A stretch of 56,619 bases of DNA from Candidatus Moraniibacteriota bacterium (GTDB lineage Bacteria; Patescibacteriota; Minisyncoccia; Moranbacterales; UBA1568): the NCBI GenBank assembly GCA_018499985.2, contig JAHBAT020000010.1:1-56619 (forward strand). Reading direction: 5' to 3'. The position numbers and the translations under genes are program-made. Below the pieces are notes generated by a model, which did not search any database, was not told where the DNA came from, and worked only from the letters and a program-made list of their open reading frames with translations. Shown piece by piece: positions 7,862 to 42,181 of the stretch. The first letter of the stretch is position 1. Each line of letters starts with the position of its first letter.

Positions 7862-7977
7862 CTTTTCGACTCAATTCTGATTACAGGGTGAAAGAAGACA
7901 TCCCTCCTAGTCTTTTTTCGCTGAAATGAAATAAAACCTCGGTTTTTTTCGGCTGTAGTCAGAATTGAGTCGAAAAG
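7862..7977. repeat. 116-bp element with 24-bp terminal inverted repeats
   Basis: The left arm 7862-7885 and right arm 7954-7977 are reverse complements with one mismatch in 24. The 68 bp between them hold no ORF. The element sits between the rplY terminator and the pth terminator, so it is not needed for either. Size and ends suggest a MITE-like insertion or a long-hairpin RNA. The TCAGAATTGA decamer in its right arm also begins the elements at 12861 and 41846. Confidence 0.6.
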
Positions 7978-12828: not shown

Positions 12829-12860
12829 GCTGGCGGTGTTTATTTAAAAAAAATTCCTCA

Positions 12861-12990
12861 ACCTTTTTCAGAATTGACTCCTTTAAGACCTATGCGTCAA
12901 GAATGTCTGCTCACGGGCCACGAGTATCCAGGCTTGCATGCATTCTAGTGACGCTTCAGTCCTAGAGTACTTACAATTCCTCAAGCGGTT
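12861..12990. repeat. Structured repeat, copy 1 (left flank of DGR island)
   Basis: This 130-bp element matches 41846-41976. The 51-nt core 12899-12949 differs from its partner at two positions, while the flanking helices differ but still pair. Here CGTC (12895-12898) pairs with GACG (12950-12953) where copy 2 has CGCC/GGCG. AGAATG (12900-12905) pairs with CATTCT (12941-12946). Outer pairs GAATTG/CAATTC, ACTC/GAGT and GAC/GTC follow. Compensatory changes point to selection on an RNA or DNA hairpin. The intergenic stretch 12829-13056 holds nothing else recognisable. Confidence 0.75.
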
Positions 12991-13056
12991 TCAGAAATTG
13001 TTTTTTAAAGAATTCAGAGAGGGATGATTCCAAGATATTGAACCATAACAGAACTA

Positions 13057-13085
13057 TTGACTTTTTAGAGAAATAAGAGTATAAT
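13057..13085 (+). promoter_or_regulatory. Near-consensus promoter of the DGR target gene
   Basis: TTGACT (13057-13062), a 17-bp spacer and TATAAT (13080-13085). This is the best promoter in the window by eye and predicts a leader of about 185 nt. Confidence 0.85.
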
Positions 13086-13108
13086 AACATATTGAACATT
13101 AACAATCA

Positions 13109-13237
13109 GGTTTACCGGAGCCATCACTTTTTTAGTCTTTCTTAGGTCAGTCTCTCTATTTAGAAGCTAAGCCTCTAAGTGCTTGGAGGTTGAACTCCAA
13201 GTTAGGGGGGGTAGAAGAGTGGTGGCTGTGGTAAACC
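13109..13237 (+). promoter_or_regulatory. Long structured leader of the DGR target mRNA
   Basis: GGTTTACC and AGCCATCAC (13109-13127) pair with GTGGTGGCT and GGTAAACC (13219-13237), 17 of 19 positions. The enclosed part holds a second helix (CCTCTAA/TTAGGGG, then CTTGGAG/CTCCAAG, 13172-13208). AAGGTG at 13266-13271 is a ribosome binding site for the ATG at 13279. A riboswitch-like or stability role is possible; no known class was recognised. Confidence 0.6.
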
Positions 13238-13278
13238 GAAATCCCTCGGAGCCAAGCATAGTCATAAGGTGACAGACC

Positions 13279-14007
13279 ATGGTGAATGGAACAAAACCCG
13301 CGACCGCCAAACAAGTGGTGGCAATCCAACAGATGCTCGGACAGGGTGTCTATGGAAGCGATCTGAGCTTTGATGAGGCGCAAGCGCTCATCACTGACAA
13401 ACGCGCTCAGCAAGCGCTGCTCCGAGATGTGCTCACAGCCTGGAAGCTGAAGCGTCTCATCAACCCTTATGTCGAAGAGCAGGCCTGGTGCCTGAACTTC
13501 CTTCAGGGTGCCGGCGTACTGACGACTGGTCTCGATGAGGCCGTCGTGCCCGAACGCCCGAGTGGCACTGCCTGGCTCATTCCACTCCCCGCAGGAGTCG
13601 GATGCAACCATATCTTCGATAATCTTTGGAACTTCGCCAAGTGGCGCTGGACGGATGATCTCGATGGCCAGCTGGCCAAGCAGGATCTTTCGGCGAGGTG
13701 GATCTGGGTCGAACCCAACCTGCCTGACCTCGAGCCGGATAAGGCCACACTTGGACAATCAGCCAACCAGGCTGACCCAGAGCAACAGAGCATCCAGCTC
13801 CGTGAGGGAATGATGTTCTATGCTGTGGCCTACCAGAAGACTGGTCGGGTGCCGGACAAGAAGGGTTATACTCTCTGCGGTGGCTCCCGCTATCGCGATG
13901 GCAATGTCCCGCGCCTCTACCTCAACGACAATGGCGAGGCGTACGTGGACAGGTACGGTCCTGACAAGGCGGTCGGCGCGCACGGAGTGCGTCAAGCAGT
14001 TCGGTAA
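13279..14007 (+). CDS. DGR target (variable) protein
   Basis: A 242-aa protein whose last 38 codons (residues 202-239) are the variable repeat of a diversity-generating retroelement. The N-terminal part (residues 1-60) is helical (AIQQMLGQGVYGSDLSFDEA); the middle is Trp-rich (NLWNFAKWRWTDDLDG, ARWIWVEPNL). The C-terminal GGSRYRDG...GVRQ fits the C-type-lectin-like fold of DGR targets. No signal peptide or membrane helix is seen, so the product may be cytoplasmic or exported by other means. Base composition is richer in G+C than the neighbours (sampled lines about 55% against 45%), which suggests transfer. Start chosen from AAGGTG seven bases upstream. Confidence 0.82.
   Translation: MVNGTKPATAKQVVAIQQMLGQGVYGSDLSFDEAQALITDKRAQQALLRDVLTAWKLKRLINPYVEEQAWCLNFLQGAGVLTTGLDEAVVPERPSGTAWLIPLPAGVGCNHIFDNLWNFAKWRWTDDLDGQLAKQDLSARWIWVEPNLPDLEPDKATLGQSANQADPEQQSIQLREGMMFYAVAYQKTGRVPDKKGYTLCGGSRYRDGNVPRLYLNDNGEAYVDRYGPDKAVGAHGVRQAVR
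13882..13994 (+). repeat. DGR variable repeat (VR)
   Basis: Ungapped 113-bp partner of the template repeat 14268-14380. Thirteen positions differ; twelve are A in the template and G, C or T here. The thirteenth (T to G) lies in the terminal GGAGTKCGTCA, the expected initiation-of-mutagenic-homing position. Ten codons are hit, nine with amino acid change: R212, D217, E220, Y222, D224, G227, V232, G233, H235 (A231 is silent). Confidence 0.93.
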
Positions 14008-14034
14008 CGCTTGAACCTTGTACCTTGGAACCTA

Positions 14035-14061
14035 GACCCGTTGCACAGCGTGCAACGGGTC
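14035..14061 (+). terminator. 12-bp hairpin just after the VR gene
   Basis: GACCCGTTGCAC / GTGCAACGGGTC, perfect, loop AGC, followed by AAAACTTTTT. It lies 28 bp after the stop codon. It can terminate the target mRNA, and it also has the position of the DNA hairpin that stimulates homing downstream of the VR in studied DGRs. Confidence 0.7.
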
Positions 14062-14091
14062 AAAACTTTTTATACGGTATTTATTTTTTGC

Positions 14092-14267
14092 TATACTGAC
14101 AATGGTTATGAAGCTGGTCTATTGATTAATAGATGACAGTTTACCACTCTATAAAACTGCCTGTCTCTCTATAGGTATTTTGATACCACTCATTGCTCAC
14201 TACTGTGCGATAACGCAGAACGATTTGGCGACAGGCGTTCGGTGCTCTAGACGTAGAGAGATAGTAA
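14092..14267 (+). ncRNA. Promoter element and structured leader of the template RNA
   Basis: A TATACT box (14092-14097), with a poor -35, precedes 170 nt without a gene. Local pairs are GGTAT/ATACC, TGCG/CGCA, CTCTA/TAGAG and CCTGTC/GACAGG. The sequence runs straight into the template repeat, so it is probably the 5' part of the template RNA. GTTTACC and GTCTCTCTAT occur in the same order in the target-gene leader, which may be chance. Confidence 0.45.
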
Positions 14268-14380
14268 GGCTCCCGCTATCGCGATGGCAATGTCCCGAAC
14301 CTCTACCTCAACAACAATGGCAAGGCGAACGTGAACAGGTACAATCCTGACAAGGCAGACGACGCGAACGGAGTTCGTCA
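14268..14380 (+). repeat. DGR template repeat (TR)
   Basis: Non-coding 113-bp donor repeat. In the target frame it reads as an Asn-rich series of AAY codons (PNLYLNNNGKANVNRYNPDK), the hallmark of template repeats in which adenines are mutated during reverse transcription. Of about 33 adenines, 12 are changed in the VR; of about 80 other bases, one is. It lies 273 bp downstream of the VR in the same orientation. Confidence 0.93.
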
Positions 14381-14395
14381 GAAGTTTTAGCAGAG

Positions 14396-14432
14396 ACTCA
14401 CTTTTCTAGAAGAGTGAGTTTATAGAATCTTT
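14396..14432 (+). terminator. Hairpin ending the template RNA
   Basis: ACTCACTTTT/AAGAGTGAGT stem (14396-14405, 14410-14419) with loop CTAG, followed by T-rich sequence to 14436. Confidence 0.6.
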
Positions 14433-14436
14433 TTTG

Positions 14437-14580
14437 TTTCCGAACACCGTTATGTATGATTGACCAGTTTTGAGACGAAAGCGTTGTAAGAAAATATGCG
14501 CACCCAAAGTATTTTTTGCGGAAGCAGCTTTTCTCGGCGCTGAGTCCAGGGGGTTTCAATCAGTAGGATAGGTGAGAAGG
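14437..14580. repeat. Second repeated element, copy 1 (right flank of DGR island)
   Basis: Matches 42038-42142 in two blocks: about 21 of 29 positions at the left (TTTCYGAAYACCRTT...) and a long ungapped right block from GCGG to ATAGGTRAGAAG. Most differences are transitions. This copy has about 39 extra bases in the middle. No ORF. 14581-14619 holds nothing recognisable. Confidence 0.6.
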
Positions 14581-14619
14581 AATGAAAAAGATGGATATGC
14601 AGCCTAGATACTGTGAGGG

Positions 14620-41768: not shown

Positions 41769-41845
41769 CACTTCTCGTAGTGAGTTGTGCAGGTGAGACC
41801 TTGGCTTTTAGGATTAAATACTACGTTATTAGGTTATTTTTTCTC

Positions 41846-41976
41846 ACCTGTCTCAGAATTGACCGTTATCCATTCTCCTCGCCAAGAATGTCTGCTCACG
41901 GGCCACAAGTGTCCAGGCTTGCATGCATTCTAGTGGCGTTCCGAATGCAGAACGGTTACAATTCTTCAAAACGGTT
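41846..41976. repeat. Structured repeat, copy 2 (upstream of ruvX)
   Basis: Partner of 12861-12990. The 51-nt core is 41884-41934. Helices: AGAATTG/CAATTCT, ACCGTT/AACGGT, CATTC/GAATG, CGCC/GGCG, AGAATG/CATTCT. Where the sequence differs from copy 1 the pairing is kept. A CAGGTGAGA/TCTCACCTG inverted repeat (41790-41798, 41842-41850) lies just before it and may be the map terminator. ORFs drawn over this region are not credible genes. Confidence 0.75.
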
Positions 41977-42037
41977 CTTAAAAATAACACAAATAACTAC
42001 GTCAGGTATAGGGTGAGCAGAAAGAAAAGCTTGTTTA

Positions 42038-42142
42038 TTTCTGAATACCATTGCGGATAATTGCCCGGATAGCATATTCGCGGTAGCAAATTTCCTTAGC
42101 GACGAGCGTAGTAGCCTTCAATTAGAAGAATAGGTAAGAAGA
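42038..42142. repeat. Second repeated element, copy 2
   Basis: Partner of 14437-14580, shorter by about 39 bases in the middle. The right block (GCGG to AGAAG) aligns without gaps. It lies 61 bp after the structured repeat copy 2 and 39 bp before ruvX. Confidence 0.6.
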
Positions 42143-42181
42143 GATAAATAACTTTGATAAATACAATAGATATTTAGATAT

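Follow-up and report, generated by a model that had tools for sequence, protein, structure and literature searches.

Short inverted-repeat elements that carry cargo have been described as TIMEs and TIME-COMPs; in the passages of these reports that bear on size, TIMEs measure 262 bp and MITEs 50-500 bp (PMC4133298, PMC13367494). In Thiohalocapsa PB-PSB1, MITE-like stem-loop arrays replaced the reverse transcriptase (RT) of DGRs 4 and 5, for which action in trans was inferred, and the same report, in the part that we draw on, describes transposons as commonly lying alongside DGRs in CPR bacteria (PMC10907252). The movement of DGRs from one site to another, and among the reduced genomes in which many of them reside, is poorly explained.

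Here we describe a unit that is present twice in the genome of a Candidatus Moraniibacteriota bacterium, with both copies in the 56,619 nucleotides that we analysed (the window). Our comparisons established four ends, their homology and orientation, their restriction to two places in the genome, the absence of the left-end element (element 1) in every relative searched, and the lack of an RT. We consider it probable that the two copies represent a non-autonomous unit with hairpin-like inverted ends that moved in trans, the copy upstream of ruvX being empty and the copy upstream of rpsU carrying an RT-less DGR piece.

The loaded unit (unit A; 12852-14594, plus strand, approximately 1743 bp) lies between a HIT-family gene and rpsU, and the 'empty' unit (unit B; 41839-42156, plus strand, approximately 318 bp) lies between map and ruvX; the matches that name HIT, rpsU and ruvX fall below the NCBI cut-offs. 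Unit A begins with its left end, L1 (12852-13000, plus strand), followed by a promoter-like site (TTGACT-17-TATAAT, 13057-13085, plus strand; a consensus match only) and by the DGR target gene (13279-14007, plus strand), which encodes 242 amino acids and contains the VR at its 3' end (13882-13994). A terminator-like hairpin lies 3' of this gene (14035-14061, plus strand; one found versus 1.8 expected in shuffles). The template RNA region (14098-14390, plus strand), with the TR at 14268-14380, precedes the right end, R1 (14435-14594, minus strand). Within the left end of unit A, the outer edge (12852-12888) and the inner edge (12975-13011) form direct repeats (37 nt, 73%), which were not reported for the ruvX unit. 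Upstream of the target gene, the stretch 13101-13245 is very stable (-64.6 kcal/mol per 140 nt, the second-best position in the window), and 13228-13243 shows 81% complementarity with positions 14132-14147 of the leader of the template RNA.

Unit B consists of a left end, L2 (41839-41988, plus strand), which forms an imperfect hairpin (fold z -4.6) with a conserved core at 41883-41935, a spacer (41989-42032) and a shorter right end, R2 (42033-42156, minus strand). A sequence-only model built from L1, R1, L2 and R2 (the four-end model) matched both ends of unit B, at 41833-41985 (plus) and 42037-42155 (minus); the model was itself built from these ends. Unit B is short and contains no ORF of at least 80 amino acids and no transposase gene, as is asked of a MITE. 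The first-pass annotation had located both loci correctly and drawn the units slightly too short. It had also placed the two elements at ruvX 61 bp apart: they are indeed close together, with no DGR between them, but with the revised boundaries the unshared spacer is only about 44-48 bp.

That annotation further held that both elements bounding the DGR island recur upstream of ruvX in the same order and orientation, and our alignments bear this out. For the left ends, 12868-12985 and 41853-41970 aligned without gaps at 88 of 118 identical positions, including 51 of 53 in the core, and the global alignment of L1 with L2 gave z 15.8, a score reached by 0 of 500 shuffles. When the ruvX unit was used as a DNA query against its own genome, it found the rpsU copy at E 1.4e-19; the next match had E 0.12. 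Similarity of the second element, R1 and R2, might have been random. We found instead that a soft local alignment scored 29, whereas the best of 1000 dinucleotide shuffles reached 16; stricter scoring gave 31, which was equalled by 1 of 1000 shuffles, and the global alignment gave z 6.9 (0/500). Right-end homology is weaker than left-end homology, yet it is real.

The left and right ends also resemble one another in inverted orientation. A covariance model of element 1 also matched the whole of R1 when 80,619 bases were searched, the match being to the minus strand (26.8 bits, E 4.8e-4); with filters off, the minus strand again scored 26.8 bits, versus 7.9 bits for the plus strand. Because the left ends are partly palindromic, their own minus strands scored 23.1 and 20.1 bits under this model. 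R2 reached only 1.3 bits and is not recovered by that model alone, because it lacks the middle of the hairpin: the alignment of the ends has a gap in R2 where the hairpin middle of R1 stands. Summed over the four pairs, global alignment of left with inverted right ends gave z 5.0 (0/500 shuffles), compared with z 3.8 in direct orientation, a score that is also raised because each of the four ends is partly self-complementary (self-inverted z 8.1, 9.2, 5.1 and 5.3, of which 9.2 belongs to L2). Pair by pair, the inverted similarity is weak: single pairs gave z 1.8 to 4.2, the L1-R1 score was equalled by 10 of 500 shuffles and the L1-R2 score by 34 of 500, and L1 and R1 did not align significantly when ordinary local alignment was used. 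By these scores, left and right ends are inverted relatives that have diverged, and each unit has two hairpin-like ends in inverted orientation. The terminal inverted repeats that define a MITE are thus found in the summed score and in the strand preference of the model; the repeats are imperfect, and weak in single pairs. The ends are imperfect, hairpin-like and approximately 125-160 bp long, with the outermost repeat around TTCTCACCT. Finally, L1-L2 and R1-R2 are each closer than any left-right pair, which indicates that left and right end already formed one unit before copying.

We assessed the distribution of the ends in this genome and elsewhere. In the 891,858-base genome, the four-end model matched exactly these four places, and thus two units only, with no solo left or right end elsewhere. 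The element-1 model found no copy in 12 other genomes of the genus, 27 of the family, 127 of the order or 382 of the class; filtering was stricter for the order and the class, the class genomes were chosen from a larger group, and the sets have genomes in common. With the four-end model, weak matches (E 0.001-0.05) appeared in 25 of the 382 other class genomes, and we set these aside since about 19 are expected by chance. DNA searches of the relatives added only a short match in another genome (G001, E 0.0057, locus L008), which we likewise dismissed, as it lies in an unrelated stretch. Searches of phages, plasmids and viral contigs yielded no copy of the ends. Among genome contigs, a 47-mer found nothing, and an 18-mer found three places, none of which matched the element-1 model. 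A search of the genome and its relatives had been proposed as a check on whether the two elements always co-occur; the ends proved to be paired, at two places in this genome, and element 1 was in no searched relative, so that the elements are neither widespread nor independent of one another. Two copies in the genome, with none found elsewhere, are few for a transposable element, and this counts against such an origin.

Both sites retain their gene order in relatives, with short gaps between the genes. The gap between the HIT-family gene and rpsU is 24-395 bp (median 84) in 27 of 27 family genomes, versus 1892 bp here in window coordinates, and all 26 relatives measured have map and ruvX -5 to 232 bp apart (median 91), versus 413 bp here; for the latter count, one duplicate fragment of G009 was dropped, and G012 had no ruvX match. 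Subtraction of the units leaves about 149 bp at rpsU and 95 bp at ruvX, values within the ranges of the relatives. As for clean empty sites in related strains, the gaps are short at both places, but the relatives are too diverged (RuvX proteins about 40-50% identical) for base-exact sites. No convincing target-site duplication was found at the flanks of either unit: the rpsU flanks share only an A run, and the ruvX flanks share the 7-mer TAAATAC, possibly by chance.

Other foldback elements lie in corresponding positions. Three genomes of the same genus (G006, G010 and G008, at loci L015, L023 and L027) contain different foldbacks of about 100-200 bp in the map-ruvX gap. Those in G006 and G010 are in part similar to sequences that G011 and G004 have at other loci; the one in G008 is a 187-bp self-inverted repeat (74%). 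In that comparison, none was similar in sequence to the units described here. These elements indicate that small foldbacks occur elsewhere in the genus, and their presence in this gap speaks for a mobile unit here. Within the window there is a further foldback of 115 bp (7862-7977), whose arms are 25 nt long, 96% complementary and 66 nt apart. Its arms contain TCAGAATTGA, the 10-mer that stands on the outer side of both left ends; there are 4 matches to TCAGAATTGA in the window versus 0.21 expected.

Such foldbacks bear on an alternative explanation, namely that the units are composites in which two related whole palindromic foldbacks, in inverted orientation, moved the DNA between them, much like TIMEs in TIME-COMPs. 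The single foldbacks of the three relatives and of the window would fit this idea, as would the fact that every one of the four ends is itself an imperfect palindrome. Yet no solo left or right element exists elsewhere in the genome, and the divergence between left and right ends is far greater than that between L1 and L2, so that left and right were fixed together as one unit before copying took place. We regard a composite origin, with the ruvX copy as a foldback pair that has almost nothing between its members, as unlikely.

The cargo of unit A shows the signature of a DGR. Among the 112 sites compared between VR and TR there are 13 mismatches, and 12 of them fall on TR adenines; at the non-adenine template sites there is a single mismatch in 79, near the 3' end. 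The locus had been called a DGR island, and the TR/VR pair upholds the name; the island is incomplete, however, consisting of target and template without an RT. Sequence 3' of the template runs directly into R1. We found no RT with PF00078 anywhere in the genome, which is 98.6% complete. The same model matched in 3 of 14 control genomes and gave the RT of the same-genus genome G011 a score of 77.6 bits; it can therefore see such RTs. Searches of the window with the RTs of five relatives returned nothing significant. G011 carries a complete DGR (L100, 9061-11753) in the order target, template, RT; in its TR/VR repeat of 123 nt, template adenines account for 17 of the 18 mismatches, and its leader is homologous to the template leader of unit A (local score 27; the highest of 500 shuffles was 14.5). 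Nine loci with relatives of the target gene were taken from other genomes; five of the nine have an open frame with a YCDD motif, these five frames being mutually similar, and the element-1 model matched at none of the nine. Relatives of the target protein occur in 30 of 382 other class genomes, and no Pfam, PHROGs or NCBIfam family matched the protein above its cut-off.

The DGR piece and the ends of the unit also differ in composition. The target gene has a GC3 of 0.66, versus 0.29-0.42 in eight other genes of the window, and the ends have a GC content of 0.42-0.44, versus 0.426 for the host; by this measure, the DGR piece appears to be foreign and the ends host-like. TR and VR agree at all but 1 of 79 non-adenine positions, compared with 30 differences in 118 positions between the left ends. 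This suggests that the duplication of the unit long preceded the last retrohoming, although selection on either could blur the comparison.

Under the reading that we favour, a non-autonomous unit would have spread by transposition, with a putative transposase supplied in trans. One copy would then have captured the DGR piece, that is, the target gene and the template RNA gene, or have received it by insertion. Diversification of the VR may have stopped recently, or may rely on an RT that acts in trans or is missing from the assembly. The first-pass annotation had proposed that the ruvX copy is an internally deleted derivative, and of such a deletion we saw no sign: the best local score between the spacer and the DGR interior was 8.0, equalled by 496 of 500 shuffles, indicating no similarity. 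An empty unit that captured the DGR piece would explain the two loci at least as well. We also sought the direction of change in the spacer and in the inner edges of the units, and neither gave an answer. The lack of any trace of the DGR interior in the ruvX spacer mildly favours a gain of the piece at rpsU over a loss at ruvX.

It is also conceivable, but quite unlikely, that the rpsU unit is a mobile 'DGR satellite', in which a cassette of target and template travels as MITE cargo and is diversified by an RT in trans. That RT might come from, for example, another element or a partner genome. If this explanation were true, the clean TR/VR pair (1/79), set against 30 differences in 118 positions between the left ends, would reflect continuing activity in trans.

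The annotation had left open whether the two elements are a MITE-like derivative or a two-part RNA. The second possibility, a two-part structured or cis-regulatory RNA upstream of two genes with the DGR piece inserted into one copy, finds some support in folding. The whole ruvX unit has a fold z of -2.55, and the left core is nearly invariant, as described above. In addition, L1 and L2 keep their hairpin as its lower stem diverges: both partners have changed in 4 of 29 pairs, and all 58 cells are paired. This covariation, however, was equalled by 36 of 500 shuffles. R2 folds no better than shuffles (z -0.14), and there is no consensus base pair over the four ends. Within the window, the folding energies of the four ends are unexceptional (percentiles 0.19, 0.05, 0.04 and 0.35); many stretches fold better, and we rejected the idea that the ends are specially stable hairpins. 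We likewise rejected a known structured RNA family: Rfam models did not match the units, giving only non-credible matches below the gathering score in the rpsU unit, and a known family was rejected for the loci of six relatives too. To our knowledge, rpsU and ruvX share no pathway, which we count against a common RNA element. Most important is the orientation of the ends. It is in reverse complement that the right end is related to the left end, a relation that an RNA function would not keep, and the inverted relation thus favours a MITE-like mobile unit over a two-part RNA, which we consider very unlikely. A further alternative, in which ordinary recombination duplicated an intergenic stretch and a DGR piece was later inserted at rpsU, with no transposition involved, is very improbable too: the two copies do lie on one contig, with starts about 29 kb apart, and have no clear target duplication, but the similarity between the two loci drops beyond the borders of the units (the outer flanks score -10 and -5.5), no gene sequence is duplicated, and both boundaries coincide with inverted end repeats.

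How, then, does this unit compare with known systems? The searched literature, with most subscription journals outside it, contained no description of empty and DGR-loaded copies of one unit. Among the matches listed for DGRs with terminal or miniature inverted repeats, only PMC10907252 is close; among those listed for MITEs in Patescibacteria, nothing was apparently related, 'mite' being used there in other senses. To the extent that the consulted parts of the reports describe them, TIMEs and TIME-COMPs share several features with the units here: they are short, lack a transposase gene, have inverted terminal repeats and exist in empty and cargo-bearing forms (PMC4133298, PMC13367494). TIMEs, as presented in the same passages, have conserved 38-bp inverted repeats of the Tn3 type, target duplications of 5-6 bp and demonstrated transposition (PMC4133298, PMC13367494), whereas the ends described here are approximately 125-160 bp, diverged and hairpin-like, without a clear duplication or a known parent transposon. 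The locus resembles DGR clade 2 of the Patescibacteria/CPR, as characterized in the excerpted account, in being cell-encoded and having a target protein without recognised domains, and the target-template-RT order of G011 is a further likeness; it differs in that the RT is absent from the genome, and the comparison is one of features rather than of clade placement (PMC8144416).

A close parallel is DGRs 4 and 5 of Thiohalocapsa PB-PSB1, where, according to the relevant part of that report, MITE-like repeats with predicted stem loops likewise adjoin RT-less DGRs; those repeats match the inverted repeats of remote IS elements and lie within larger DGR loci (PMC10907252). Here, in contrast, one unit with two defined ends brackets target and template, and an empty copy is present in the same genome. 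The paired copies offer a concrete and testable picture in which DGR parts can ride non-autonomous elements and are separable from the RT; should natural populations still show variation in the VR, an RT must act in trans. MITE-associated DGRs that have lost their RT are already known; the paired empty and loaded unit is new.
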